64,000 nt of DNA, from positions 261,758-325,757 of the forward strand of contig NZ_KE384557.1 in the NCBI RefSeq assembly GCF_000426705.1, written 5' to 3'. The notes beneath the pieces were generated by a model. It did not search any database. It was not told the DNA's origin and saw only the letters and a program-made list of their open reading frames with translations. This document shows, piece after piece, positions 30,483 to 47,702 of this stretch (positions are counted from its first letter, which is position 1; each line of letters opens with the position of its first letter). The DNA is from Spirochaeta cellobiosiphila DSM 17781 (GTDB lineage: Bacteria; Spirochaetota; Spirochaetia; DSM-17781). A program made the position numbers and the translations under genes.

Positions 30483-31175
30483 GTGATCAAAGATTCCTCT
30501 TTTGATAATAATAATTATGATCTCATTCAGGACAGAGACTTTAGAGTCTTCATGATTGATGATGCTCTCCAATGCAATAGCAGCTCTCGTGTTTCCACTT
30601 CTATAGGCTTAGCCAGTATGATATATCATATGGGTATACGAGATAAAAATGCTTCCTTTGTCCTGGATCTATTAGAGACCAATAACGAATATGTAGTGGA
30701 TGCCCTTGTTGTTGATAGTGATCCCTTTATTATGATGAGAAATATTACTCCCACAAGGTTAATCTTGAGTAAAACCTTTAAGATTCTAGCTTTTCACAAT
30801 CCAGGCCACCTTTATCCCAAAGTCCTATTGGCATTATTGGGGGTTATCGATATTGCATACAAACGTTCTGTTGACGGTTTTGATATCTATCCTTTTACCC
30901 TTAGTGAGCTGAATAACATAAGTAAATATCTAGATGAATCACGAGATCAATTTGATCAAGTCAACAAAGTACTGTTGCGTATATTAGAGAATCTTCATGA
31001 CATGGGAATCGGATCAGATGATTGGAAAATCCGTCTTATGGCCTTCCAGGCTATCCAGATAAGACTAGCCTTTTTTGATCAGAATAAATCCCTTATTGAT
31101 ATCATTCCTGAAGAACTTCTAACTAGAGTAAAAAAGAGAAGATCCATCAAACCTGACAGTTTTAATCTGGCCTGA
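30483..31175 (+). CDS. Paralogue array member 1: unknown all-helical protein
   Basis: A 230-residue cytosolic protein of a family I do not recognise, first of five tandem copies. Shared family marks: NEYVVDALV followed by DPF, PGHLYPKVLLALLGV, DGFDIYP, LNNISKYLDE, then VNKVLLRILENL, IRLAFFDQNKSLIDIIPEELLTR. It is the most divergent copy and lacks the early CRTSE-like segment of copies 4 and 5. The start is a GTG without a clear ribosome-binding site; the ATG at 30552 is an alternative. A gap of 142 nt, holding a TTGACA element (31252-31257), separates it from copy 2, so copies 2-5 may form their own transcript. Confidence 0.75.
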   Translation: MIKDSSFDNNNYDLIQDRDFRVFMIDDALQCNSSSRVSTSIGLASMIYHMGIRDKNASFVLDLLETNNEYVVDALVVDSDPFIMMRNITPTRLILSKTFKILAFHNPGHLYPKVLLALLGVIDIAYKRSVDGFDIYPFTLSELNNISKYLDESRDQFDQVNKVLLRILENLHDMGIGSDDWKIRLMAFQAIQIRLAFFDQNKSLIDIIPEELLTRVKKRRSIKPDSFNLA

Positions 31176-31317
31176 AAACAGGCCTGTCAATCGTAAAATA
31201 GGCCTAAAATCAATGTTTTTTACTTTTTTCTAAAAAAAAACACCGGAAATTTGACAAATCGCGAATCATTTCTAAGACTTTCTATTAGAAACCCGTATTG
31301 AGGGAGGTTTACTGATA

Positions 31318-31995
31318 GTGTCCATAAAAGAAGCATTTAGAGAAACTAGCGATAAGTTCAAATTGCGCTATATGGATGAGGTTTTTCAGGTGAAGGAGGA
31401 ACATGCGGTTATGTCCGCTGTTACTTATGCCTCTTTCCTAAACCAATGGGGATTACAGCCTGATAACTTTGTCCTGTTTTTCCGTTGCATGGAAATTGGA
31501 AACAAGTACGTTATAGATGCTTTGACAGAGGGGAAGGACCTGGAGCATTTCTTTGACGGTATAACACCAACCTATGGTCTTGTTAACCAAGTATTTAAGT
31601 TACTAGAAGCTAATAAGAAAGGAGGAATCTACGAAAAGGTTCTTGTGATTCTTCTTGGTTTTTTAAACAATGTTTACTTATCTCCTCAAGAAGGATACGA
31701 CCTGTACTCTCCAGATATTGAAGAGATCAATAAGCTTGCTAAATTCCTGGATGAAACCAAGAAGCAGGATTTTCCCGTAAACCGTATCATGCTTGATATT
31801 CTAAAGCACCTGGATGAGTTGGATTGGGAAGAGAAGTCAGGTCCTAAATACACACTAGCGAAACATGCAGGCAAGATACGTTCAAACTTCCTTGATGATA
31901 CTCGTCATTTGAATCAAAGCATTCCGTCTATCCTGCTTGAGCTCGACCCGGATTTTACGGATGGTATTAAACCACCCTATGTATATCAGGACTAG
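31318..31995 (+). CDS. Paralogue array member 2: unknown all-helical protein
   Basis: A 225-residue member of the same family. Family marks: PDNFVLFFRCMEIGNKYVIDAL (about 47-68), KGGIYEKVLVILLGFL, EGYDLYSPDIEEINKLAKFLDE, VNRIMLDILKHLDEL, and IRSNFLDDTRHLNQSIPSILLEL near the end. It starts at a GTG with GGGAGG ten bases upstream. No signal peptide or membrane helix is present. It is separated from copy 3 by only 8 nt, so copies 2 to 5 are almost certainly one operon. Confidence 0.78.
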   Translation: MSIKEAFRETSDKFKLRYMDEVFQVKEEHAVMSAVTYASFLNQWGLQPDNFVLFFRCMEIGNKYVIDALTEGKDLEHFFDGITPTYGLVNQVFKLLEANKKGGIYEKVLVILLGFLNNVYLSPQEGYDLYSPDIEEINKLAKFLDETKKQDFPVNRIMLDILKHLDELDWEEKSGPKYTLAKHAGKIRSNFLDDTRHLNQSIPSILLELDPDFTDGIKPPYVYQD

Positions 31996-32003
31996 GAGGA
32001 AGG

Positions 32004-32702
32004 ATGAAAGGCGCTGAATGGAAGAACGTCATCTCTGAAGAAGAGTTAGTTAAGCTTCGACTTGAAGCCATTGACTACATTATCAGAGCAGACGAACCAC
32101 ACCGGGTAGATGCGGCTATTGAGTTCGCCAAATATCTTAATTATGTAGGACTTAATCCCGACAACTATCCTCTGTTTATTGAGATCATGGAAAATGGAAA
32201 TCCCCATGTATTAGAAGCTCTCATTGGTCAAAAGGATCCTTTTACCTATTTTGATGTTGTGGAGACAAGTCCTTATATGATCCATGAATTTGTTCAGATA
32301 CTCTATCAATTTCAACCTGGAGCTCTGCATGAGAAGCTGGTGTTGTTAGTGATGGGAGTTCTGTTGAGAACCTATATCGATCCTATTGCAGGGTACAAGA
32401 AATACCAGATCAGTATGGATGAACTGAATGCCATAGGTAAAAACCTGGATCCTGAAAAGGATCAGAACGACCCTCTCAATCGAAAAATCTTGGACTTTTT
32501 CGGTGAAATCGGGGACATCATAAACGTGAGTAACGACGAAGCCCTGGAGTTGATTGCCAACCATGCCATTAATATCCGGAATGTCTTCCTCGATCCAACT
32601 CAAAAACTTTCGGATAAAATTCCTGAACTGTTAGTTCAGAGAGTAAAATACCTGGATGGGGCCGTCCCCCCCAGGAAAACCAAACCACTCAAGGAGTCGT
32701 GA
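32004..32702 (+). CDS. Paralogue array member 3: unknown all-helical protein
   Basis: A 232-residue family member with a perfect AGGAGGA before its ATG. Marks: PDNYPLFIEIMENGNPHVLEALIGQKDPF (in pieces about 50-78), PGALHEKLVLLVMGVL, AGYKKYQISMDELNAIGKNLD, DPLNRKILDFFGEI, IRNVFLDPTQKLSDKIPELLVQR. The conserved DPF and IPExL motifs are intact. It lies 8 nt after copy 2 and 3 nt before copy 4. Function unknown. Confidence 0.78.
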   Translation: MKGAEWKNVISEEELVKLRLEAIDYIIRADEPHRVDAAIEFAKYLNYVGLNPDNYPLFIEIMENGNPHVLEALIGQKDPFTYFDVVETSPYMIHEFVQILYQFQPGALHEKLVLLVMGVLLRTYIDPIAGYKKYQISMDELNAIGKNLDPEKDQNDPLNRKILDFFGEIGDIINVSNDEALELIANHAINIRNVFLDPTQKLSDKIPELLVQRVKYLDGAVPPRKTKPLKES

Positions 32703-32705
32703 AGA

Positions 32706-33401
32706 ATGACAGCACAAAACGACGAATTCACCGACAAAGTATGGTCACTGGAATCCATAGCGAGGGTGGAAAACTCCATCATAAACAACATTTTCGGATG
32801 TCGAACTAGTGAAGGAGTTGAGGCCGCTATCGCATATATTCGGTTCCTCAGAGAAAGCGGCCTTACGAACGAGAACTACCCACTTTTTCTAAAGATTCTG
32901 GAAATCGATAACCACTGGGTTATTGATGAGCTCATCGGTTCAGGAGATCCCTTTCTACTGTTGACCCCCATACAGCCTACCAAGCATTTGGTATCTACCT
33001 GTTTCAGATTGTTGACCAACTGGCATCCAGGTGGAATCTATCCAAAGACACTTGCCATATCGCTTGGAGTCTTACAAGTTGCCTATTGTTATGCCAAAGA
33101 TGGATACAACATTCACCCAGTATCCATCAATGATGTAAACAACTTAGGTAAGCACTTAAATAAGGACCTTGGTCAGGCGGATCCTATTAATCAGGTTATA
33201 TTGGATATCCTTGATAAGATCAGTCTTCTCGAAGGTATCGGAGACGAAGCTATGGAAAGAGTTGCTCGACAAGCTACGCTCATTAGAAGTAATTTCTTTG
33301 ATCGACGTAAGAAGCTTGAAGATGCTATTCCTCAGGTTCTATTGGTTAAATCAGATTACCTTGTCAAGGAAATCGCACCTACCAAAGTTTTCGTAAACTA
33401 A
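32706..33401 (+). CDS. Paralogue array member 4: unknown all-helical protein
   Basis: A 231-residue family member, closest to copy 5. Long shared runs include GLTNENYPLF, NHWVID-L, DPFL, HPGGIYPKTL, LGVLQ, DGYNI, LGKHL and VILDILDKI. These suggest that copies 4 and 5 come from the most recent duplication. The N-terminal CRTSEGVEAAIAYIRFL segment is shared only with copy 5. The ATG follows the copy 3 stop by 3 nt. Function unknown. Confidence 0.78.
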   Translation: MTAQNDEFTDKVWSLESIARVENSIINNIFGCRTSEGVEAAIAYIRFLRESGLTNENYPLFLKILEIDNHWVIDELIGSGDPFLLLTPIQPTKHLVSTCFRLLTNWHPGGIYPKTLAISLGVLQVAYCYAKDGYNIHPVSINDVNNLGKHLNKDLGQADPINQVILDILDKISLLEGIGDEAMERVARQATLIRSNFFDRRKKLEDAIPQVLLVKSDYLVKEIAPTKVFVN

Positions 33402-33421
33402 GAGCAAAGGAGTAAAAGGTA

Positions 33422-34234
33422 ATGATTATTCTTGATAAAGAAAGAATTTTTACCAATGAAGACATTGGTTATATAGAAAACAGTATGTTGAACGGCATTC
33501 TTGCCTGTCGTACTTCAGAAGCTGTTGAAGCGGCAATTACATATTCTCGTTTCCTAAGTAAAACTGGTTTAACAAACGAGAATTATCCCTTATTCATCAA
33601 AGTCCTGGAGATAGGAAACCATTGGGTTATTGATGCTCTTGTAGGAGACAGAGATCCCTTTCTCTTCCTTAGCTCTATTCAACCTAATAGAAAGATCTCA
33701 CAGGCTATGTTCGCCTTACTTGCAGAACGACATCCTGGAGGAATGTACCCTAAAACTCTGTCTATTATACTGGGAGTATTACAGGCTCTGTATAACAGTC
33801 CGGAAGATGGATACAATATCTACAGTCTGTCCGTGTCAGACTTAAACTCATTAGGTAAACACCTTGATGAAGAAAAAGGACAAGAGGATTCTTTGAATCG
33901 TGTAATCCTCGATATACTGGATAAGATCGGTCAATTGGAACGACAGGATTCCATTGATGCTCAGACAGAGGAGATTGCCATTCACTCTTCCAAGATACGT
34001 AATTTCTTCTTTGATGCTAATAAGAAACTTAAGGAAGTTATTCCAGAAGTTCTTCTGGTACGAATGCGTTATCAGGATTTTGAAGTGGCACCCAGAAACG
34101 AAATCGATCATAAGGAAGAAAAGGGCGGTCCTGCTGCAAATCCAAAACCACCAAAAGCAGGTGATTCCGCTACTCCTCCCAAGCCTAAAGCTGAGGCGGC
34201 ACCTAAGAAAGCGGCTCCTAAAAAGGACGACTAA
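33422..34234 (+). CDS. Paralogue array member 5 with Ala/Pro/Lys tail
   Basis: A 270-residue protein: a full family domain (about 1-228; CRTSEAVEAAITYSRFL, ENYPLFIKVLEIGNHWVIDALVG, HPGGMYPKTL, DGYNIYSLSVSDLNSLGKHLDEE, IRNFFFDANKKLKEVIPEVLLVR). It ends in a unique 40-residue tail rich in Lys, Ala and Pro (KPPKAGDSATPPKPKAEAAPKKAAPKK). That tail resembles histone-H1-like or nucleic-acid-binding tails and contains possible Ser/Thr phosphosites. AAAGGAG precedes the ATG. The array ends at the terminator 20 nt downstream. Confidence 0.78.
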   Translation: MIILDKERIFTNEDIGYIENSMLNGILACRTSEAVEAAITYSRFLSKTGLTNENYPLFIKVLEIGNHWVIDALVGDRDPFLFLSSIQPNRKISQAMFALLAERHPGGMYPKTLSIILGVLQALYNSPEDGYNIYSLSVSDLNSLGKHLDEEKGQEDSLNRVILDILDKIGQLERQDSIDAQTEEIAIHSSKIRNFFFDANKKLKEVIPEVLLVRMRYQDFEVAPRNEIDHKEEKGGPAANPKPPKAGDSATPPKPKAEAAPKKAAPKKDD

Positions 34235-35495: not shown

Positions 35496-36452
35496 TTACT
35501 CATTCTCAAAATCTTCCTGTGTACTAAGGAAGCTGGAACCCATAATGCCATATTCCTCTCGCATTTCATGAACAGACCGTTCCTGTAAAGTTTTTATCTT
35601 TTCATCTCCATACCAGCTATAGAAATAATCTCTTATGTAATCACGTCTTTTCATAATATTGGCGGTGATCGTATCAGCTAATTTTGTTCTCTCCCCTTTA
35701 GGAACATCCTTAAAAACATGATTACAGATCTTCTCCAGATCTTTCTTCTGAATAGAGTCAAAAGCATCAAAACGTTTTTTGAAGAAATCCCAGGAATAGG
35801 TATAAAACAATTCTGTCTTTAAAGGTGTCATATATCTGGTTTTACCAGGCCTTTCCCAGCCAAAAGTATCCTTTGTCCCTTTAATTTTCATTTTAGTATC
35901 CATGAGATCTACATTGGAAAAGTCGATTGTAATGATGATAGGGAAGTTGCCAGGAGTGTAATAGATTAAGTAGTTATTAGGATTACGGTCCTCATCAAAG
36001 GTGACCCAGCTGTTAATCAGATCCAAAGCTAACTGGTCTCTCATCACCTTTTGTTCCAGATACGGTGCCCCACTAAGCTGTTCCGTTCTAATCATGATCT
36101 TACTGGCCCGATAATACTCTCCTCCCAGTTTTGTTACCAAAGAGGGCGCTGCTGTATTTCCTGTAAAGTAGTTAAGAAAATAACAGATCTCCCCAAACTG
36201 GAATTGCCGGGCTTCCTCTTTTGGGATTTTCTTAATGATCCACTTAGCATTAGGATCTTCCTTTTCATAAGCTCCTATATAGTCTCTCGTTGTAGCAAAG
36301 AACGGTATGTCCATATATTCATCCGGTTCGAGAAAATCATCGGTTGAAAACTTTTCCAATGATTCTTCAAAGGTCGTGTGATAGTCCAGCATTTTTGTTA
36401 AACGTTCATCTTTAGATATTTCACTTGCAATATCGAAATTCTTTTTGGCCAT
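35496..36452 (-). CDS. Kinase-fold protein of atypical (HipA/PI3K-like) type
   Basis: A 318-residue cytosolic protein I cannot place in a named family, but it shows the landmarks of an atypical protein/lipid kinase fold in order. These are a strand with a lysine pair (KWIIKKIP, K74/K75), a helix with a glutamate (FGEICYFLNYF, E88), a catalytic loop FDEDRNPNNYLI (D153/D155, N157, N160), and the metal-binding IITIDFSNVDL (D177). HipA and PI3/4-kinases use the pattern DR(H/N)xxN followed by (I/F)DF. It lies 20 nt after a PPP-type phosphoesterase gene, as a likely kinase/phosphatase pair. Activity is inference. Confidence 0.7.
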   Translation of the reverse strand: MAKKNFDIASEISKDERLTKMLDYHTTFEESLEKFSTDDFLEPDEYMDIPFFATTRDYIGAYEKEDPNAKWIIKKIPKEEARQFQFGEICYFLNYFTGNTAAPSLVTKLGGEYYRASKIMIRTEQLSGAPYLEQKVMRDQLALDLINSWVTFDEDRNPNNYLIYYTPGNFPIIITIDFSNVDLMDTKMKIKGTKDTFGWERPGKTRYMTPLKTELFYTYSWDFFKKRFDAFDSIQKKDLEKICNHVFKDVPKGERTKLADTITANIMKRRDYIRDYFYSWYGDEKIKTLQERSVHEMREEYGIMGSSFLSTQEDFENE

Positions 36453-36472
36453 AAAACCCCTCCAATGGCTAA

Positions 36473-37420
36473 TTAATAGATATCTCCTAGAAAAAAGCGG
36501 CTTTTTTGAATTTTGAGGTCTACATGAATCAATTCATGTTCATAACTGTTTTTACTGAACTTGATGATAGGACAGGTTTCCTGTACTGAGGAGTAGATAA
36601 TGATATAGTTTTTAGCCCCCATAATATTGAACCAAACCGATTCATCTCCACCCAGGTTATACAGAGGATTGTGACCCACAATAAAATAAATATCCGGATC
36701 GACTCCCAATAACTCCTTAGTTTTATTAATATCATCTTCTGTATATTCTTTGTTGTTAGCTAAGGATCCAATGGTGTTAATACGGTTCCACATGAGCTGA
36801 AAGGCATCAGTTTCATAACGGCGGATTTCAATAAGATGATCTCTTGTACATCCTCCTCTGACGGGACCGGCATGCACACAAAGAAAAGCATCTGCCATGA
36901 TAAAAAGGGGCAGGGTATTGAACAGCTCCTCCACCTTATTCCTGTACTCCTCACCTCTGTGTGCGACCAAAAATTCATCAAAATACTTAGCCTGTTTGAT
37001 CCCGCTTTTAACAAGTAAGTGGTTAAAAGTATCATGGTTGCCTTGAAGGAATATAAAATTCTGGGGCCAACGGACCATACATTCTAGAACTAATTCTAAT
37101 AATTCCAGGCTTGGTTCCATCTCTGTTAGATATCCTGTACGGTCATCATGAATAACATCGCCCACTAATATAAGAATAGCTTTATCCTGATCAAGCTTAT
37201 TTTCTATATCATCTGTTTCTAATATGCATTTGAAATTATGCAAATTAGCATGGAGATCTCCAACGATAAAATACTCTTTTGCTATTCCCCTAAAATCAAT
37301 AAGAGCTCCAGGTTTGTTCTCTGCTGTCCTAGGTCTGACCTTAGCAGGAAGGGCCTTCCGTAGTTCAAGCACCTTGTCCAGCATCGCCATACTCCCTCGT
37401 TTGGGAAGGGATTCACTCAT
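36473..37420 (-). CDS. Calcineurin-like (PPP-type) metallophosphoesterase
   Basis: About 315 residues with all five metal motifs: FIVGDLHAN (about 52-59), LVGDVIHDD, LQGNHDTF, VHAGPV and VGHNPL. The GDxH / GDxxDR-like / GNHD order and the HAGP motif are those of PPP-family protein phosphatases and ApaH-like enzymes. I start it at the ATG at 37420 with AAGGAGAT just before it; the longest frame adds eight residues. It is first in a two-gene unit with the kinase-fold protein. It is divergent from the acidic anchored protein at 37550. Protein or nucleotide substrates are both possible. Confidence 0.87.
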   Translation of the reverse strand: MSESLPKRGSMAMLDKVLELRKALPAKVRPRTAENKPGALIDFRGIAKEYFIVGDLHANLHNFKCILETDDIENKLDQDKAILILVGDVIHDDRTGYLTEMEPSLELLELVLECMVRWPQNFIFLQGNHDTFNHLLVKSGIKQAKYFDEFLVAHRGEEYRNKVEELFNTLPLFIMADAFLCVHAGPVRGGCTRDHLIEIRRYETDAFQLMWNRINTIGSLANNKEYTEDDINKTKELLGVDPDIYFIVGHNPLYNLGGDESVWFNIMGAKNYIIIYSSVQETCPIIKFSKNSYEHELIHVDLKIQKSRFFLGDIY

Positions 37421-37549
37421 ATAATCTCCTTCGGAATTGTTCAATAGGAACGCACTCCTAACTTAAATTAAAGTACACCCGAGGGGGAGTGTCAAAAAAT
37501 ATTTCCTTTTTGGGGCTATAACTACGATAATTATAAGGAGAGGATATAA

Positions 37550-39193
37550 ATGATAACAAAGGACTTGCAGGATAAACTACAAGAACTCTATAACGTGGCC
37601 AATCTTTACAAATGGACCAGCCAGACAGAAGCACTCATCACAGAGGTTATCAAAAAAGCTAAAGGCAAGATGAAAGAAGCTCTTCAAAGTGCTCTCTACT
37701 TAAAAATGCGTCAAGCAGATAGCTCAAAAGAAGAGATTATCATATCTCTCATATTGCTCTCCAAGTTAGGGGTTGATCTGGATAGAATCACAGAAAAAAC
37801 AGTGGACTACCTAATGAACAAGATCTATGTGGTAGATTTCCAGTTCCTGATTACCCACCTATTCCCTCAAGGCGCCCCATTACCGGAAGACCTCATCTAT
37901 GACATTACTTCGAGAGTCGTCTTTGATATACGCAACAGCTATGACAGAATCGCCAGAGGTTTCCAGCGGGTTCCGAAAAAGAGAGGAAGTGAAGCCATAT
38001 TGTATTTATCCGGGCTCATTTGCCGTCCCGATCTCAGTGCTCAGAACAGGGATCTTCTCTATATTATATTGTCTAAAGTTCAATTACCCTTGCCACCTAA
38101 TTTAGCGACCATTGCCAATCTAAAGCTTATTGATATCCGCAAAAAATTAAGTCATAAATCACTTAAATCCTTAAGAAACCTAACTCTGGAAGGGGAGGAT
38201 GTCCCAGAACCAGAAGAAAACGTCCCCGAAGAATTTCACAGTTTAGAACAGGATACGATGAAATCGAGAAAGAACTTTCTCGACATCTCCTATGAAGACA
38301 GACGTAATATTGAATTAAATAATCGGGATAATCAAAGCTCTGATCATCAGGAAGCTGCTGATAGAGGAAGCTTGGGTATCTCCCTGGAGCGGGAACAAGA
38401 TAGCAGTAAAGGAGAGGATCTCGAATCTTTACGAATTAGTTCAAATCAGGGAGGGGATAAAAAACAGGACAGAGCCCCTCTCCCTGAATGGGATAGAATA
38501 GCATCGGAGGAACATGAGACAGAGGCTCCTCAAAGCAAAAAGTCCACCCCCAAAGCAAGTACTCCTTCTTTGGAGGAACCTAGACCAGTCACCACAGGTA
38601 TTGAAACTACCATTGAAAATGATCCCCTCGAAGATACATCAAAAGGTTTAAACTATAAAACTTCAAAGGATAGTAAAGCTCCTCAAATAGAAAGTAGGGA
38701 AGAGAACAGCACAACAAGCTACAAAGCGTATCAGGAAGCAGGTAAGGAAGATGGGATCAAACTGGACTCCATAGATGATCTCTTTGAAATAGAAGAGGCA
38801 AAACACTTAGAAACCAGGACAGGAATAAACAAAAAGACTACAACTGCGGATACAAAAGATTCAGAAACCAGAAAACCAAAGAAAGCAAGAAAGAAGGCCC
38901 CCTCCAGAAAAGATCCCTCAGAAAAGGCTCCCCCTGTAGAGGCAGAAAATGTACATAAAACAGAAATCTCACCAGAAACAAAGAAAGGACTATCCCAAAG
39001 CTTAGGTGGTCTGACACGTTACTGGAAGAAAATCCTTCCTTTTCTCTTTATTCCTCTGATTATTGCTATTATATCAGCACTATTGTATAACCCTATGAAT
39101 GATCCCAGCGAACCAACCAGAAACAATAATCCAACAACAGAAGATGTTAAAACAACAGGCCTCTCCTACATTCCCTATACATTATTGGCATGA
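37550..39193 (+). CDS. Large acidic protein with C-terminal membrane anchor
   Basis: A 547-residue protein I do not recognise. Residues about 1-210 form a helical, repeat-like domain (ALQSALYLKMRQADSSKEEIIISLILLSKLG, VVFDIRNSYDRIARGFQRV). Residues about 215-480 are charged, low-complexity and rich in Ser, Thr, Lys and Glu, so probably disordered and a good substrate for Ser/Thr kinases. A single membrane helix lies near the end (ILPFLFIPLIIAIISALLY, about 500-520), with a short tail after it. The helical head would face the cytosol. It has AAGGAGAGG before the ATG and sits between the two phosphosignalling gene groups. Confidence 0.72.
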   Translation: MITKDLQDKLQELYNVANLYKWTSQTEALITEVIKKAKGKMKEALQSALYLKMRQADSSKEEIIISLILLSKLGVDLDRITEKTVDYLMNKIYVVDFQFLITHLFPQGAPLPEDLIYDITSRVVFDIRNSYDRIARGFQRVPKKRGSEAILYLSGLICRPDLSAQNRDLLYIILSKVQLPLPPNLATIANLKLIDIRKKLSHKSLKSLRNLTLEGEDVPEPEENVPEEFHSLEQDTMKSRKNFLDISYEDRRNIELNNRDNQSSDHQEAADRGSLGISLEREQDSSKGEDLESLRISSNQGGDKKQDRAPLPEWDRIASEEHETEAPQSKKSTPKASTPSLEEPRPVTTGIETTIENDPLEDTSKGLNYKTSKDSKAPQIESREENSTTSYKAYQEAGKEDGIKLDSIDDLFEIEEAKHLETRTGINKKTTTADTKDSETRKPKKARKKAPSRKDPSEKAPPVEAENVHKTEISPETKKGLSQSLGGLTRYWKKILPFLFIPLIIAIISALLYNPMNDPSEPTRNNNPTTEDVKTTGLSYIPYTLLA

Positions 39194-40294: not shown

Positions 40295-41668
40295 TTATTT
40301 CTTAGGCTCATCGAAAACGATCGTCGTTCCTTCAATGTTAATAACATCTCCGGAAGTTAACTTTCGTTTCTTAACAGGATTATTGTTTACCATAACTTCC
40401 GACTTAGATACCAGAGTATAGTCCCCTGTTTTATCATTTCTCATAACAGTCACGTGTTCATCGGCTATAGAAGGTTGGCCACTAATGGTAAGATTAGCTT
40501 CTGTAGAACTTCCAATAACGGTGTTTGCCTGGTTAAGGGCAATTGTCCCTGAGCTAACAGAACGTTTATTAGGCCCAATAACCTCTAAGCCTGCAACCTT
40601 GGCTGCTGATTCCCATTTGATAAAACCAATGAGGGATAAAACTAAACCTGCTAAGGGAAATAATATCAGGTATGGCAGGGGATCTGCTAGAGCGGCTTCT
40701 CCCATTAGGTTTTCAGAATAAAAATATTGGGTTGCCCGGTTCTGTTCCTGACCATAATCGATGTCGATTCTAACAAATTGTTTGTCACTTCTTGGCTGTT
40801 TAGCTCTGTAGGTGGCTACGTATTCTGTTAGGATTCTTTCTTTGATATCCTTATAGACTCCCAGTAATTCCTCTTGGTTATAGGCTTTGTAACTGGTTCC
40901 CCCAGATTTAATGGCCAGCTCCCGTAAGGCAGGATCTCCGTGACCACCAAAATCGATGGCAAACAAACTAACCCCTGCTTTCTTCAAAGCTTCCAAAGAA
41001 ATAAGAGAGCTTCCCTGGACTTCACCGAACTCGGGATGAGGTTGATTCAAATGTTCTGTATAACTGAAATTTTCACCGTCAGATAAAACAATAAGAGCTT
41101 TACGTCCATATACATCGGTCATATTCCGGGAAGCCAAATCAATAGCCCAAAATAATTCTGTGTAAGCGTCTTTTCCCTCTGGTTTAATAATACTATCCAG
41201 ATAAGTTCCCAAGACCCTATCATGTGTTCCCGGTTCAATATGCTGTACATAATGGGTATTAAAGCTGGCTAATCCAATGGTGTCCTTTGGATTGGAGATA
41301 GATCCGGCAAAGCGGAGGAGGGCATTCTTGGCCTGATTGGCAGGAAGTTCCCCCTTACCGTCATACATACTTCCTGAGTTATCAATAAGGAAGAAGAAGT
41401 TAATACCCCTGTCTAAGTCAGCCATTCTGGTTAATTGTAAAGGGACTTTAGGATTATCAAAGGCACCCCCATCATAGCTTTCTGATACCTTTACCTGATC
41501 GATGGTGATATCCTTAAGAGGGGAGGAATCGCCATCTGTTACACTAAAATACAGATCCACTTCCTGATTCAAGAGCAGACGTGCTGTGTCAATCTGATTA
41601 AGATTAACGTTAATAGCCCCCAGAGAGGCACTGATTCCTATAAAAAGAAAAGCTAGTATTTTATTCAT
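40295..41668 (-). CDS. Exported VWA-domain protein with C-terminal degenerate FHA domain
   Basis: A 457-residue protein. A signal peptide (about 1-18) leads to a beta-sandwich, then a VWA domain (about 90-300) with a complete MIDAS (DNSGSM at 96-101, later TELFWAI Thr and LSDGENFS). A membrane helix follows (about 338-356), then a cytosolic FHA-like domain (about 375-457). The FHA copy reads VIGSSTEANLTI ... SIADEHVTV: the phosphothreonine-binding Arg after the first Gly is missing, but the His is kept. It may therefore sense something outside and dock to the kinase inside. Its start overlaps the end of the upstream gene by one base. Confidence 0.85.
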   Translation of the reverse strand: MNKILAFLFIGISASLGAINVNLNQIDTARLLLNQEVDLYFSVTDGDSSPLKDITIDQVKVSESYDGGAFDNPKVPLQLTRMADLDRGINFFFLIDNSGSMYDGKGELPANQAKNALLRFAGSISNPKDTIGLASFNTHYVQHIEPGTHDRVLGTYLDSIIKPEGKDAYTELFWAIDLASRNMTDVYGRKALIVLSDGENFSYTEHLNQPHPEFGEVQGSSLISLEALKKAGVSLFAIDFGGHGDPALRELAIKSGGTSYKAYNQEELLGVYKDIKERILTEYVATYRAKQPRSDKQFVRIDIDYGQEQNRATQYFYSENLMGEAALADPLPYLILFPLAGLVLSLIGFIKWESAAKVAGLEVIGPNKRSVSSGTIALNQANTVIGSSTEANLTISGQPSIADEHVTVMRNDKTGDYTLVSKSEVMVNNNPVKKRKLTSGDVINIEGTTIVFDEPKK

Positions 41669-42543
41669 TATTGTCCTCCTAGTGAGGTCAGTAGCAGCTT
41701 AAGATCACCTGCCTGGATAACATCCTCCCATTTGAGTTCCTGTTCTTTGACAGGATGCTCATTAAGAAGAAGAGGATGGGTTTTGGTCAAAGAAAGGAGA
41801 TACAACTTCTTACCTTTCTTCTGAATCACCCCATGTTCCTGGGCTAAGCCTGTATACCCTGACAAGCTTATATCCACTTTACGGCTTGCCCCAATGAGAG
41901 ACTTGGATCTGACCAGAGGGAATTGCTTTCCTTTGAACTTCCCATTCAAGACCCTAATAACGCCGTAGGTAACACCCGATTCCAGCAGACTATAGGCAAG
42001 AGCGATTGTTCCAGAAAATATGATGAGACCGAAGAGACGGCTATAAATAAAATGAGGTGCTATTTCGGCAGATTTTTCAATAAACAATCCTCCTACACAG
42101 CCCCCAATGATACCCCCACCTAATCCTATTAGTATCTTCTTAATAGATCTGGAACGTATTCCTTCTCCTATGGCAATGAACATTCCCAGGATAATCCAGC
42201 CAAAAGTCTTAAGAAGACTCTCATCCATTATATGAAGGTTCCCCACAAAAAGAATAAGGTTCTGGGCTAGAAAGAATCCTAAAATTCCACCTATACCACC
42301 AATCGTCCCTCCGATGATGGCCCCAGTACTGGTTTTATTACTATTCTTGGTGAGTAAACCTTCAGCACTTCCCAGGAAGGCTCCCATAACAGCACCAATG
42401 AGTAATCCCTGAACAAGGATAGATATGAGATAGCTGGGAAAGGCCCTTTGAAAGCTAATTGTTATTTCCATCAATGGCCATACTGCCACACCGGCTAGTA
42501 TGCCAACGATTACAATCAGTAATCGTTTAATAAAAGTTGACAT
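41668..42543 (-). CDS. Glycine-rich multi-pass membrane protein with C-terminal degenerate FHA domain
   Basis: A 291-residue protein with about six membrane helices full of glycine zippers (GAIIGGTIGGIGGILGFFL, GLGGGIIGGCVGG), reaching residue 190. A C-terminal FHA-like domain follows (LIGASRKVDISLSGYTGLAQEHGVIQ ... HPLLLNEHPV ... DVIQAGDLKLLL). As in the VWA protein, the usual GR is replaced (GAS), and EH remains. It lies between the PknB-type kinase (8 nt away) and the VWA gene (1-nt overlap), so the three are co-translated. The helix pattern suggests a pore or oligomer, but no function is known. Confidence 0.75.
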   Translation of the reverse strand: MSTFIKRLLIVIVGILAGVAVWPLMEITISFQRAFPSYLISILVQGLLIGAVMGAFLGSAEGLLTKNSNKTSTGAIIGGTIGGIGGILGFFLAQNLILFVGNLHIMDESLLKTFGWIILGMFIAIGEGIRSRSIKKILIGLGGGIIGGCVGGLFIEKSAEIAPHFIYSRLFGLIIFSGTIALAYSLLESGVTYGVIRVLNGKFKGKQFPLVRSKSLIGASRKVDISLSGYTGLAQEHGVIQKKGKKLYLLSLTKTHPLLLNEHPVKEQELKWEDVIQAGDLKLLLTSLGGQ

Positions 42544-42551
42544 GTAACCTC

Positions 42552-44405
42552 CTATTCAAGAGTCAGGATCTTATTGTCGTAAAGAGCTTCTTTCGTCACT
42601 GACTTTCCGCCATTTATGAGTAGACTTTCTTTTATTTTCTTACCGGCTCTGGTCAGGGTCAGTTGATATTCCCCTGGATAGAGGCTCAGCTCCCGGGTTT
42701 GGGTTCCTTTAATTTTACCTTCTGGAAGTTTGCGTTGATCCCCTTCTATCGTCCAACGAAACCCTTTAGTAGGAATCTTTATCTCTAAGGACCCCTTTTC
42801 TGGTAAGAGGGCCGCTTCCAAATGAAGGGTTGTCTGGTTTGTTTCGACAATCAAATGGTAGTACTTTTCAGTATATCCCTTAAGAACAACACGGAATTGA
42901 TAGGTTTCTCCTGTCATTAGACCGGCTTTTCGACTATTGGTTAAAGGCAGCCATTTGCCATTAGTGAACATATAAACCTGAGCTGGTCCTGTAAGGTTTT
43001 CCCCGGTAAAGTAATCCCAGAATTTTAACTCTGTCGTCAGAGGCAGAGCCCGGCTCGAGGATTTCTTGATCGAAACAATACGCCCCTTCTTTGTATGAAT
43101 CTCCTGTTTCTGAACAGGCCGGGGATTAAGGGTAATCGTATGCCAGTTCAATTGGTCATCCAGTATGAACTTAATCCGGTATTCTCCTGCAGGTAGATAT
43201 TGTTTGAGGGACTTGAATGTATAGAACTTGTCTTCCGGTGTTGATTTCAAAAGGTGAAAGTTCAAGGGTTTATCATTTATCCTAATAGGTTCATTGTCCT
43301 TATCCTGATAAATAATCGCTGATATAAAGTGGTCCTGGGGAAGACGGTCATCTATGGGGGTTTCTGCCTGCAGAACGAGGGCGCCATATCTTGTATTAGG
43401 CAGTATTTCATTATGCAGCCCTAATTTGAAGAGGGCAAAACCACATAATCCCAGAGCTCCCAGTCCTAAGGCCACAAGGATGGTTTTTTTTAGTTTTTGG
43501 AACTTCTTCGTTGGTTCTGGTGGTGTGTATTTCTTTTCTTCTACCAGACAATGGAGTTTTTTACGAAGCTCTGAAAGGTTTTTCTTACGGAAATGCCTTT
43601 GTAAAAGATTAATCACACGGCTTAGGTCCTTAATCCTTTTCTCCCTTTTGGGACTCATACACTTTTTAATGATCTTCTGGCTTAGTTTGCCTACCTGAGG
43701 ATTTACCTTACGGGGGTTTGTGTATTTTCCTTTCTGGATCTGACCTAATAATTCCGCACTAAAGGATCCGGGATAGGGCTTCTTCCCGGTAACCATCTCA
43801 TAGAGCATAACCCCCATGGAGTACACATCCGCCCGAAGATCCACTGTCCTTGTGCTTTCAAATTGTTCCGGTGCCATATAGGAGGGGGTTCCCAGGGTCA
43901 TTCCATCCTGGGTTAAGCCCTCTTCCTGATCTTCTCTGCTGGAGGCAATCCCAAAATCCACTAACTTGGCCTCGCCTCTTCGGCTTAAAAGGATATTCCC
44001 GGGCTTGATATCCCTATGAACGACCCCTTTCTTATGGGCATAGTGCAGAGCCCGGCAGGAATCATAAAATATTAATAAAGCCATTTCCTCTGAAAGGTAG
44101 CGTTCTTGTTTGAGGAGTTTATCCAGTGCCGTTCCATCTACATATTCCATAACGATGTAGTAACTGGTTCCTTCTTTGAAGTGGTCATACACGTCAACAA
44201 TGTTTTCATGTTTGAATTCCATCATCAGACGGGCTTCCCTTTTGAACCTTTCTGCTATGGCTTTTTTACCTCTTAAGGTAAGTTTTTTGAGTATGACCTC
44301 TGTATTAAGAGTAGGGTGATGTCCTTTATAGACAGCGCCCATTCCTCCCTTAGCCACCAGAGAATCTACTTTGTATTTTCCTATTTCTTCAGGTATCCTA
44401 GGCAT
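42552..44405 (-). CDS. PknB-type Ser/Thr protein kinase with membrane helix and periplasmic beta domains
   Basis: A 617-residue receptor kinase. The kinase domain (about 10-270) has the Gly loop AKGGMGAVYKG (18-28), Lys40, Glu57, the catalytic loop HRDIKPGN (130-137), DFG (150-152) and the activation-end motif GTPSYMAPEQ. A basic linker follows, then one membrane helix (about 311-330) and a 285-residue beta-rich part that resembles PEGA-type repeats rather than PASTA (YQFRVVLKGYTEKYYHL, LSLYPGEYQLTLTRAGKK). Kinase in, sensor out. It overlaps the phosphoesterase gene by 8 nt, so writer and eraser are coupled. Confidence 0.95.
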   Translation of the reverse strand: MPRIPEEIGKYKVDSLVAKGGMGAVYKGHHPTLNTEVILKKLTLRGKKAIAERFKREARLMMEFKHENIVDVYDHFKEGTSYYIVMEYVDGTALDKLLKQERYLSEEMALLIFYDSCRALHYAHKKGVVHRDIKPGNILLSRRGEAKLVDFGIASSREDQEEGLTQDGMTLGTPSYMAPEQFESTRTVDLRADVYSMGVMLYEMVTGKKPYPGSFSAELLGQIQKGKYTNPRKVNPQVGKLSQKIIKKCMSPKREKRIKDLSRVINLLQRHFRKKNLSELRKKLHCLVEEKKYTPPEPTKKFQKLKKTILVALGLGALGLCGFALFKLGLHNEILPNTRYGALVLQAETPIDDRLPQDHFISAIIYQDKDNEPIRINDKPLNFHLLKSTPEDKFYTFKSLKQYLPAGEYRIKFILDDQLNWHTITLNPRPVQKQEIHTKKGRIVSIKKSSSRALPLTTELKFWDYFTGENLTGPAQVYMFTNGKWLPLTNSRKAGLMTGETYQFRVVLKGYTEKYYHLIVETNQTTLHLEAALLPEKGSLEIKIPTKGFRWTIEGDQRKLPEGKIKGTQTRELSLYPGEYQLTLTRAGKKIKESLLINGGKSVTKEALYDNKILTLE

Positions 44406-45420
44406 AATCGTCCTTTAAAGTAATATTGGGTATCTCAAAGATATGGGTATCCAAGTTTATACTTCCTTCCACAGGAAGCCAAGCTACAATAAATCGGTTT
44501 GGGTTGTGGATTTGGACATATTTACCATTGGCTCTTGTAAAATAGCTACCTGCAATGGGACGATGGCCTCCAAAGTGGAAGACCTTATCCGTTTTTCCCA
44601 GAAAGTGTTCCAAACTTCGGTTGACACTATCCTTTTCAGCTTCCTCATTTGCTGTCCAGGTTAGACCATAGATAACTTCCGGTTTCGTTCGGTAATTGAT
44701 GATTTCCTCTGTGTTGTAGAAACGGGCTGGTTCGGCATGGGTGACGATAAAGTGACTTCCCAAGGCCATTAGAGGCAGGTTTGCTTCAAAATCATAGTAG
44801 CTGGCAAAAAAATCATCACTCATATACATCTGAACCCAGTCGGTTACCATTTGTCCTTCCATGGCGAACTTGCCAAAGGGATAGTTCCCATTACCATTTT
44901 CATTGGCTATGTTTTCATGATTACCTTTCAGAAAATGAAAATGCTGGGGAAAAGCGATCTTGAGTTCAATGATCATTTCCATTAACCCTAAGCTTTCCCT
45001 CATCTCTGCATCCATGTATTTATGTTTTCGGAATCCTCCCTGGAATTCTTCGAAAGCCTGAAGCCATCGATTCCTGACTCGTCCTTCCCCATGGAAACCA
45101 TCACCGACACAAACGATCTGAAGGTCCCCTCTGGTAAGCCGTTCCAATACTGTACTTCCGTTAAAGTCACAAGCTTCCATAAGGGATAGAATAAAGTCCA
45201 TGCGAGCATGAAGATCAGGAATGATAATCGTCTCGACAGGAAGGAGTTTTATTAACCCTCCGGGCAGACCTCCCTGATCAACAGGACGCATATCCTGATC
45301 CTCAGTCATCAGGATCCCATTCACTTGATCCACTTTTTGTAAATAACTCACAGGATCGAGGACTTTTTTGCGAAAGAAGATAGTTTTTAGTCGGTCCAGC
45401 ATTTTCTTGTAATCGGTCAT
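44398..45420 (-). CDS. Second calcineurin-like metallophosphoesterase, coupled to the kinase gene
   Basis: A 340-residue enzyme with PPP-type motifs: IIIPDLHARMDF (about 65-76), CVGDGFHGEGR, LKGNHENIANE, VTHAEPA and FGGHRPIAGS. Compared with the enzyme at 36.5 kb the first motif is PDLH rather than GDLH, and the arrangement differs, so they are not recent copies. The end overlaps the kinase start by 8 nt. The order phosphoesterase-kinase-FHA fits the eraser for kinase products, which elsewhere is usually a PP2C enzyme; none is seen here. The true substrate is not known. Confidence 0.85.
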   Translation of the reverse strand: MTDYKKMLDRLKTIFFRKKVLDPVSYLQKVDQVNGILMTEDQDMRPVDQGGLPGGLIKLLPVETIIIPDLHARMDFILSLMEACDFNGSTVLERLTRGDLQIVCVGDGFHGEGRVRNRWLQAFEEFQGGFRKHKYMDAEMRESLGLMEMIIELKIAFPQHFHFLKGNHENIANENGNGNYPFGKFAMEGQMVTDWVQMYMSDDFFASYYDFEANLPLMALGSHFIVTHAEPARFYNTEEIINYRTKPEVIYGLTWTANEEAEKDSVNRSLEHFLGKTDKVFHFGGHRPIAGSYFTRANGKYVQIHNPNRFIVAWLPVEGSINLDTHIFEIPNITLKDDYA

Positions 45421-45426
45421 TATCTA

Positions 45427-45957
45427 TTAATCAACCACCATTGTTTTATTTACTTCAATAAAGTTCTCTGTAATGATCATTGTTGCTTCATCAAGAATAC
45501 TTTCCTCATCGGCAGGATCCATATCTTCTTTTAGAATAGCTATCTGATAGATAGGAGAACTCTTCTTGATTGGTCCTTTGGAAAAATGTACTTCTCCGTC
45601 TATAACAATGTCCTCTGTTAATTCAGAGTCCGCATTTTCTGCCGCTTCAGGAACGTCTTCTCTTAGGCCGATGCTGGCATAGGAAGCCTTACGATTGCCT
45701 TCCATTAATGGTCCAATATTCACTAAGGAACCTGAATAAGTGAGAACCAGGGCTCCTTTTGGATCATCCTTGGCCAGCTCCTCTACCGTGATAAGTCCTA
45801 GTTTCTCTAGCTCTTGTTCAAAGGCTTCCTGTTTTTCCAGCCACCCTCCGCTTAGTAGTTCAAGACTATCATCGTTATCCGGAAGACCTGCTATTTTGAC
45901 CAGTCTTTTAATATGATCCTGTAATTTGACTGGAATTTGTTGAAAATTATCACCCAT
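45427..45957 (-). CDS. Hypothetical acidic protein, first gene of the kinase operon
   Basis: About 176 residues, unknown family. The N-terminal third is helical (IPVKLQDHIKRLVKIAGLPD, EKQEAFEQELEKLGL), the rest is acidic with strand-like stretches (KGALVLTYSGSLVNIGPL, IYQIAILKED, TMIITENFIEVNKTMVVD). I start it at the ATG at 45957, five bases after AGGAGGAAA; the longer frame adds six residues across that ribosome-binding site. It ends 6 nt before the phosphoesterase gene. It could be a soluble regulator or substrate of the kinase pair. Confidence 0.68.
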   Translation of the reverse strand: MGDNFQQIPVKLQDHIKRLVKIAGLPDNDDSLELLSGGWLEKQEAFEQELEKLGLITVEELAKDDPKGALVLTYSGSLVNIGPLMEGNRKASYASIGLREDVPEAAENADSELTEDIVIDGEVHFSKGPIKKSSPIYQIAILKEDMDPADEESILDEATMIITENFIEVNKTMVVD

Positions 45958-46039
45958 CGTATTTCCTCCTGACATTGGCTTAATTCTTGATTCATAATGT
46001 AGGACTTGTTCTACTGATTATCCAGTGTTGTTTCCTATT

Positions 46040-46085
46040 TATACCAAAAGGTATACCTTGTTATCTTTTTCCGTGATATTATTAT
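46040..46085 (+). promoter_or_regulatory. Possible promoter with palindrome before the FHA gene
   Basis: TTGTTA (46058-46063), a 16-nt spacer and TATTAT (46080-46085) form a plausible promoter. TATACC-AAAA-GGTATA (46040-46055) is a palindrome just upstream. The -10 lies five bases before the ATG at 46091, so the FHA mRNA may be leaderless. Confidence 0.4.
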
Positions 46086-46090
46086 TGTGT

Positions 46091-46420
46091 ATGGACGAGA
46101 CACTCTATAAACGTAGTCCTCAGGGACAAAATAAACAACAACAAAAGGGCCGTCTCTTTATTGGGAACCGCTCTGTTAACTTTACTAAGGACATTTATAT
46201 TGGCAGGGGAGAGGATAATCAGATCGTTTTAGATAAGGATGATCAGATATCCCGTCAGCATGCTCTTATCAGGGTTTTAGCAGGGAGAGCCTATATCAAA
46301 GACCTTAATAGTACGAATGGTACCTATGTTAACGGCCAGCCCCTTCCTAAAGGGAAGTTAGTTCCTTTAAATCTTGAATCTGTAATACGAATTGGGAACA
46401 CATCCATTCGCTATGCCTAA
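46091..46420 (+). CDS. Stand-alone canonical FHA-domain protein
   Basis: A 109-residue protein that is almost entirely one FHA domain. All phosphothreonine-binding residues are present: IYIGRGEDNQIVL (Gly-Arg), ISRQHALIR (Ser, His) and LNSTNGTYVNG (Asn). It should bind phosphothreonine peptides made by the adjacent PknB-type kinase. I prefer the ATG at 46091; a GTG at 46025 would add a hydrophobic 22-residue lead. No ribosome-binding site is seen in front of the ATG. It is divergent from the kinase operon and overlaps the peptidase gene by 8 nt. Confidence 0.85.
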   Translation: MDETLYKRSPQGQNKQQQKGRLFIGNRSVNFTKDIYIGRGEDNQIVLDKDDQISRQHALIRVLAGRAYIKDLNSTNGTYVNGQPLPKGKLVPLNLESVIRIGNTSIRYA

Positions 46421-47702
46421 GCTTTGCTTAACCCTTCTTGTTCTACTCCTCTTTATGGGGTGTTCCCTCTTTACCTTGGAAGAGGGAGAACCTTCTAAAA
46501 CAAGCTGGACTCTTATGATTTATGCCAGTGGGGATAATAATCTCGATAATGATCTTCTTGATGATTTTCAGGAAATGGAAGCAGCCATCACAAGTGATTA
46601 TCTCAATGTTATTCTTTTAATAGACCTAAGTACAGCCAATACTGCTGGTATTGGCTTTAGTGATACCCGGGCTTATCGTATTCAACATGATGAGGATGAT
46701 AATTCCATAGGCTCAGAAGAATTAGAGATCGGACCCTTAGCCTTGTATACCTCTTCCCAGGAAGAGCTTGATCTGGCCAATCCTGATACTCTGAGTAGCT
46801 TTGTGAGTTGGTGTAAGGGGAATTATCCTGCTGACCATTATGCTCTTATCATGGAAGGCCATGGGGATGGCTGGTATAATGAGTCCTCTTATAACTCTGG
46901 AATCAGTGCAATGGGGGTAGGTCATGATGAAGATGATGGCCAGGGAAGTTCTACTTATCATTACCTTAGTCCCGGGGATATAGAGACTGCCCTCACAGGC
47001 AATGAAGTGGATATAATAGGCTTTGATGCCTGTCTTATGGGGACAGGAGAGACTCTTTATCAGTTAAGAGATATTGCAGATTTTGCCTGGGCCAATCCCT
47101 ATCCTGTTCCCGGTTATGGGAATAATTACCGTATTCTCCTGGAACACCTTGATCAAAGGCGTTCCTCTGTTGCTTCCTTTGGCTGGGGATACTTAAGTGC
47201 CTATGATGAGGCTTATGGTAATACCATTTTCAATGGGTCTTATCGAATGGATACATGTAATGTTGCTCTCTATGATCTATCCAAAATGAGCCAGTTTATC
47301 GAAAGTTCTGTCTTTGCTAAGTGGAATATCCTTTTGATGGATAAAATGGCCCGTATCAGTGAGGAGCAGGCAAATGGCCTGGCTATTGTTGATGATACTT
47401 CCCAATATATTATAAAAGATCCTGATAACTCTCAATTTCACTATAGGGATCTATTGGAACTGTATCGTTGGGCTGATAATACGAGTCTTGATCTGCCTGA
47501 TTTCGGAGGTTTTATTAAAACCTATAAATCCTACTATGCCTCAAGTTCAGATTCGGAGGCAGATTATCATTTAGGTATATATTTCCCTACGACAAAAATA
47601 ACTGAAGGTGATTTGTCTGATGACTTATCCGCCTATCGAAGTTCTCTGGATTTTGCTGATACCAATTGGGATGAGCTGATCGAGGCTTATCTGCTCCCTT
47701 AG
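46413..47702 (+). CDS. Clostripain-family (C11) cysteine peptidase lipoprotein
   Basis: About 429 residues. A lipoprotein signal (MPKLCLTLLVLLLFMGC) is followed by a caspase-like C11 domain: SWTLMIYASGDNNLD, the catalytic His in YALIMEGHGDGW (about 155) and the catalytic Cys in IIGFDACLMGTGET (about 214). The family cleaves after Arg or Lys and is usually self-processed. The signal places it in the envelope. The ATG at 46413 overlaps the end of the FHA gene by 8 nt; the frame extends a few codons further, but the signal peptide begins here. A strong terminator follows. Confidence 0.88.
   Translation: MPKLCLTLLVLLLFMGCSLFTLEEGEPSKTSWTLMIYASGDNNLDNDLLDDFQEMEAAITSDYLNVILLIDLSTANTAGIGFSDTRAYRIQHDEDDNSIGSEELEIGPLALYTSSQEELDLANPDTLSSFVSWCKGNYPADHYALIMEGHGDGWYNESSYNSGISAMGVGHDEDDGQGSSTYHYLSPGDIETALTGNEVDIIGFDACLMGTGETLYQLRDIADFAWANPYPVPGYGNNYRILLEHLDQRRSSVASFGWGYLSAYDEAYGNTIFNGSYRMDTCNVALYDLSKMSQFIESSVFAKWNILLMDKMARISEEQANGLAIVDDTSQYIIKDPDNSQFHYRDLLELYRWADNTSLDLPDFGGFIKTYKSYYASSSDSEADYHLGIYFPTTKITEGDLSDDLSAYRSSLDFADTNWDELIEAYLLP

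Follow-up and report, generated by a model that had tools for sequence, protein, structure and literature searches.

Five apparently ancient helical paralogues in Spirochaeta cellobiosiphila recur in a portable cassette with putative kinase and phosphatase genes

In the eukaryotic PP2A holoenzyme, a PPP-type phosphatase works with helical-repeat scaffold subunits. Bacterial Hanks-kinase/phosphatase pairs carry out reversible Ser/Thr phosphorylation and include a membrane-tied component. Kinases of the HipA, HipT and CtkA type share a lysine strand, a DxxxxN loop and a following aspartate, and their recognized roles are those of toxins and effectors. Here, these systems are compared with a cassette of Spirochaeta cellobiosiphila DSM 17781 in which five adjacent genes for proteins of one unnamed family (groups A to E) are accompanied by genes for a putative kinase (c3), a PPP-like metallophosphatase (c1) and a membrane/LysM-type protein (c2). 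The cassette lies in a 64,000-nucleotide stretch of contig NZ_KE384557.1, hereafter the window (Table 1). No paper on this cassette was found in the literature.

Table 1. Cassette genes in the window, numbered from its first nucleotide
Feature	Positions	Strand	Length	Start codon	Basis
Paralogue E (copy 1)	30483-31175	+	230 aa	GTG	ORF list, group profile
Paralogue D (copy 2)	31318-31995	+	225 aa	GTG	ORF list, tree, group profile
Paralogue C (copy 3)	32004-32702	+	232 aa	ATG	ORF list, tree, group profile
Paralogue A (copy 4)	32706-33401	+	231 aa	ATG	Group profile, AF2 model
Paralogue B (copy 5)	33422-34234	+	270 aa	ATG	Group profile
c3, HipA/CtkA-like putative kinase	35496-36452	-	318 aa		Conserved residues, co-occurrence, weak structure matches
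c1, calcineurin-like, PPP-like metallophosphatase	36473-37444	-	323 aa		PF00149
c2, membrane/LysM-type protein	37550-39193	+	547 aa		Orthologues in other loci, transmembrane segment, tail

The five genes are paralogues beyond doubt. When copy 5 was compared with its own genome by tblastn, the other four copies were recovered at E values of 7e-75, 2e-44, 2e-38 and 4e-38, and the 3.95-Mb genome contains no sixth. The other copies are 28-33% identical to copy 1, and the five-copy alignment contains 31 invariant columns. The original prediction, made from the sequence of this stretch, had placed five adjacent paralogues at 30483-34234 with copy 1 spaced apart from the rest. Both points are borne out by open reading frames (ORFs) that all lie on one strand and by the intergenic gaps, which are 142, 8, 3 and 20 bp in order, so that 142 bp sets off copy 1 against 3-20 bp elsewhere. 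The motif string proposed for the family is broadly right, but “DPF” and “PG” are absent from copy 2, which has DLE and KKGG instead. A cytosolic location, also proposed, is plausible because no transmembrane (TM)-like stretch was found in the five proteins (best 19-residue hydropathy, 1.68).

Evidence that the copies are old and distinct came from an unrooted maximum-likelihood tree of 74 rows, which splits the family into five orthologue groups: A (copy 4), B (copy 5), C (copy 3), D (copy 2) and E (copy 1). Support is good for groups A, B and C and for both halves of D (100/97 for the clade of copy 3, 100/99 for that of copy 2), moderate for E as a whole (92/83) and weak for the placement of copy 1 within E (87/62). 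Group profiles agree with the tree for copy 1, which scores 292 bits with the E profile against 166 with the next group. The corresponding scores are 301 against 171 for copy 2 with D, 340 against 194 for copy 3 with C, 429 against 290 for copy 4 with A, and 413 against 302 for copy 5 with B. Identity is higher within groups than between them, A and B being the slowest-evolving groups. Copies 4 and 5 had been taken for a recent duplication, a view that the tree and the identities rule out: the two are 53% identical to each other, while their best orthologues in other genomes reach 76% (A) and 72% (B), and copy 4 is 72-76% identical to the spirochaete orthologues of type I loci. Since each is closer to foreign orthologues than to its neighbour, their duplication is older than the split between these families. 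The claim that copy 1 is the oldest is not readable from the tree, because the tree is unrooted. With groups A to E retained across families and in a second phylum, the five copies look like anciently distinct sisters, fixed parts rather than recent extra copies.

Profile searches covered 392 genomes of spirochaetes and 52 of a second, small phylum; a single-protein scan across genomes underestimates the spread of the family. The family was found in 20 of the 392 spirochaete genomes, spanning 19 genera, with four or five matches in 18 of the 20, and in six of the 52 genomes of the second phylum, with four copies in each. One second-phylum locus, L040, belongs to a deltaproteobacterium according to its depositor and to Myxococcota according to the taxonomy label used here, and Spirochaetes metagenome-assembled genomes account for the majority of the closest named loci. 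The distribution is patchy and the cassette is portable between bacteria. The c3 gene follows the family closely. All 17 spirochaete genomes in which it occurs are family-bearing, and in the second phylum the six genomes with c3 are precisely the six with the family (Fisher p = 4.7e-27 and 4.9e-8, values that are not strict probabilities, the genomes being related). The three family-bearing genomes that lack c3 are one with an A-B fusion and two in which the cassette lies on contigs of 3-5 kb. In the second phylum, c3 was found only on other contigs in four genomes and 85 kb away in one; the tie between c3 and the family thus exceeds physical linkage. The c1 gene is present in 17 of the 20 family-bearing spirochaete genomes.

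The same partner genes, c1, c3 and often but not always c2, recur around the paralogues in 30-odd loci, joined by a further gene, c5, in another lineage. Gene orders combine [E c1 c3 c5] with [A B D], or run [C A B D]. Lineage I, to which the window belongs, carries A to E, and the stretches of it that were seen contain no c5; lineage II carries c5 alongside A, B, D and E; and loci of the second phylum carry A, B, C and D. A, B and D are nearly always present, and A and B are adjacent wherever both were seen; in locus L048 they are fused as one 442-aa ORF. A conserved outer neighbourhood was rejected: the outer flanks sampled vary between genomes, so that only the cassette is conserved. The partner genes c3, c1 and c2 (35496-39193), which are the most telling on function, had been overlooked by the original prediction. 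In locus L044 (3926-14120), the cassette is flanked by genes for ZnuA and an ABC-3 permease that share a strand, which suggests insertion into a zinc-uptake operon. In locus L042 (7944-8691), copy B is split between two frames, representing a frameshift or an assembly error. Family members that are shorter, diverged and interrupted by in-frame stops lie outside or beside the cassette at G021:C2:25855-26373, G016:C74:30425-30985 and G129:C342:39173-39778, and are likely decayed copies.

In members of the protein-kinase-like superfamily, a lysine is typically followed by an aspartate, an asparagine five residues on and then a further aspartate. The c3 protein carries this kinase-type catalytic set (lysine strand, DxxxxN, aspartate) in the same order as HipA, HipT and CtkA. 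Across 22 c3 orthologues, DEDRNPNNY is invariant (D149-R-N-P-N-N154), as is a later ID (D171), and the lysine of a WLVK motif (K68) is nearly invariant, being at least 90% conserved. An hhalign comparison of c3 with HipA places the catalytic loops in register (p = 0.0023, with all eight control pairs at 0.03 or above), and the top structure matches of a low-confidence c3 model are CtkA, HipA and HipT, at Z scores of 5-6. These data indicate that c3 is probably a HipA/CtkA-like kinase, and its conserved residues are those expected if it has kinase activity. Unlike HipA, HipT and CtkA, it is encoded alongside a phosphatase and solenoid proteins, and no HipB-like partner was identified.

The assignment of c1 is consistent with a phosphatase. 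It matches PF00149 at 49.8 bits against a curated cutoff of 21.5, and the best solved relatives of its profile are BSU1, PP5 and other PPP Ser/Thr protein phosphatases. The GDxH, GNH[D/E] and HAGP motifs common to PPP-type metallophosphatases (PP1, PP2A, PP5 and BSU1) are kept, although c1 forms its own bacterial branch. In locus L038 (10766-13431), two c1 phosphatase genes adjoin on opposite strands, one of them within a 467-aa ORF.

The remaining partners point to the cell envelope. In c2, a long linker joins an N-terminal helical domain to a single TM segment (residues 495-513), and several c2 orthologues end in a LysM or LysM-like domain (PF01476 at 4e-14 in that of locus L036). The window c2 has just 34 residues beyond the TM segment, and the LysM of its orthologues is absent. 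Homology between the c2 N-terminal domain and the paralogue family was considered and is unsupported (hhalign p = 0.15 and 0.22). From its sequence, c5 of lineage II is a pseudokinase, a degenerate protein kinase with no invariant catalytic residues across members; several c5 proteins terminate in an amphipathic-looking helix that is short, basic and aromatic.

For the paralogues themselves, the statement that they belong to no named family was confirmed. They match no Pfam family at E ≤ 1, including ARM and HEAT models, and no PADLOC model at E ≤ 0.1; NCBIfam and PHROG gave no meaningful match, and a profile search of the PDB gave none. Stray weak matches fall far short of cutoffs (TIGR00363 at E 0.028, phrog_29637 at E 0.016 and a PDB glycosyltransferase at E 0.034). 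A phage or plasmid origin was also rejected: tblastn of copy 4 against 50,697 phage records and 72,556 plasmid records gave no match, and no viral fold was matched at E ≤ 0.001. The AlphaFold2 (AF2) model of copy 4, built from 34 sequences, is confident (predicted local distance difference test score, pLDDT, 89.9; predicted template modelling score 0.83) and all helical, as had been predicted. Its nearest solved folds are armadillo/HEAT-like, namely HSF2BP, importin alpha and mDia1, at Z scores of 7-8 and root-mean-square deviations mostly of 3.2-6, over alignments of about 126-171 residues. The model is thus suggestive of an armadillo/HEAT-like alpha-solenoid, which would have stacked helices in common with importin alpha, HSF2BP and the mDia1 DID. 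Unlike those proteins, the family consists of short, single-domain members in a set of five paralogues and has no Pfam ARM/HEAT match. Seven residues (G133, K149, L151, Q157, N162, L166 and D199) are invariant in 34 diverse members, and some are polar, as would be expected for a shared functional surface. Copy 5 also has a low-complexity, charged tail of about 42 residues; other B orthologues have tails of 20-76 residues, whose sequence is not conserved.

A phosphorylation-controlled multi-subunit complex is the simplest account of the cassette, because its distinct subunits form a fixed set, are strictly paired with a putative kinase and a phosphatase, include an A-B fusion and have a partner anchored to the wall. 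In the form to which we give about an even chance, A to E would be five old, non-interchangeable subunits. Together they would make up a hetero-oligomeric solenoid complex serving the c3/c1 pair as a scaffold or client adaptor. A, B and D, with C and/or E, would assemble into the scaffold, which would bind c1, c3 and client peptides and deliver clients to the kinase or the phosphatase, the whole forming a reversible protein-phosphorylation module. c2 would tie the module to the inner membrane and cell wall, and c5 would do so in the other lineage; the module is probably located at the envelope. The original prediction had likened the family to filament subunits or client adaptors with dose or specificity under selection, and of this the protein-binding, adaptor part fits the armadillo/HEAT-like model, while the part concerning dose is unsupported.

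A to E might instead be the substrates, as structural subunits of a hetero-oligomer such as a filament, a shell or a membrane coat, with c3 and c1 acting as the switch for its assembly. Retention of several paralogues as a fixed set, their strict association with a single kinase and a single phosphatase, the A-B fusion and the charged, disordered B tails would all be expected under this alternative. It is nevertheless judged rather unlikely, since the 34-sequence alignment has no invariant Ser or Thr (variable loops or tails could hold phosphosites) and the predicted solenoid-like fold points to peptide binding. The patchy, portable distribution and the likeness of c3 to HipA and HipT bring to mind a phage-defence or toxin-antitoxin module, in which a HipA-like kinase toxin would be held back by the solenoid proteins and the phosphatase. 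That reading is improbable: PADLOC gave no meaningful match for the family, c3, c1 or c2, and its match to c5 is confined to the kinase-like domain; phage and plasmid records yielded no relative of copy 4; and no HipBA set resembles this combination of five conserved subunits, a phosphatase and a LysM anchor. The view first taken, of a recent tandem amplification that raises dose, has very little to commend it beyond the genes being tandem and homologous. The groups arose before the families diverged and before the second phylum was reached, and have been retained in both, copy number is held at four or five, and identity is higher within groups than between them.

Several observations weigh against the scaffolded-module interpretation. 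The c3 model has a pLDDT of 40 (three sequences), hhalign itself assigns the c3-HipA match a probability of just 5%, and c3 has no sequence match to any kinase family, with the HipA_C domain (PF07804) detected in 0 of 22 orthologues at E ≤ 1 and giving no match in the window genome. c1 has a GDxxH-type motif where the classical PPP enzymes have GDxVDRG, and it is present in four genomes that lack the family. For the paralogues, the armadillo Z scores are below the level trusted for helical repeats, and so not conclusive, and Foldseek returned no match to the copy 4 model with E below 0.001. The A-B fusion is the sole direct evidence of interaction. Envelope tethering is not universal, because c2 and c5 were not found in second-phylum loci and the window c2 has no LysM.

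It is a tentative proposal, with somewhat less than an even chance, that the cassette encodes an undescribed bacterial phospho-signalling machine, in which a hetero-oligomer of at most five armadillo-like paralogues permanently carries a HipA-like kinase and a PPP-like phosphatase and which is portable across phyla. If so, it would be an independently built bacterial counterpart of scaffolded kinase/phosphatase complexes such as PP2A. The comparison is by analogy only: a PPP-type phosphatase with a helical-repeat scaffold would be common to both, and the cassette adds a putative kinase as a fixed partner. Relative to Hanks pairs, reversible phosphorylation and a membrane-tied component would be shared, but c3 is not a Hanks kinase and c5 is kinase-like without invariant catalytic residues. 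An atypical kinase and a PPP-like phosphatase would then share a dedicated solenoid scaffold in a portable multi-subunit module, HipA-like kinases would gain roles beyond those of toxins and effectors, and an unannotated family would acquire a cellular role and offer a simple model of scaffolded kinase/phosphatase switching.

A second, separate phospho-signalling cluster lies 1-7 kb downstream of c2 in the window (40295-46420). It encodes a VWA protein, an FHA membrane protein, a Hanks Ser/Thr kinase (PF00069 at 2.8e-55), a calcineurin-like phosphatase, a 182-aa protein of no assigned function and an FHA protein, the Hanks-kinase/phosphatase pair occupying 42552-45420. Adjoining this FHA cluster, at 46392-47702, is a gene for a putative lipoprotein of the clostripain family (PF03415).

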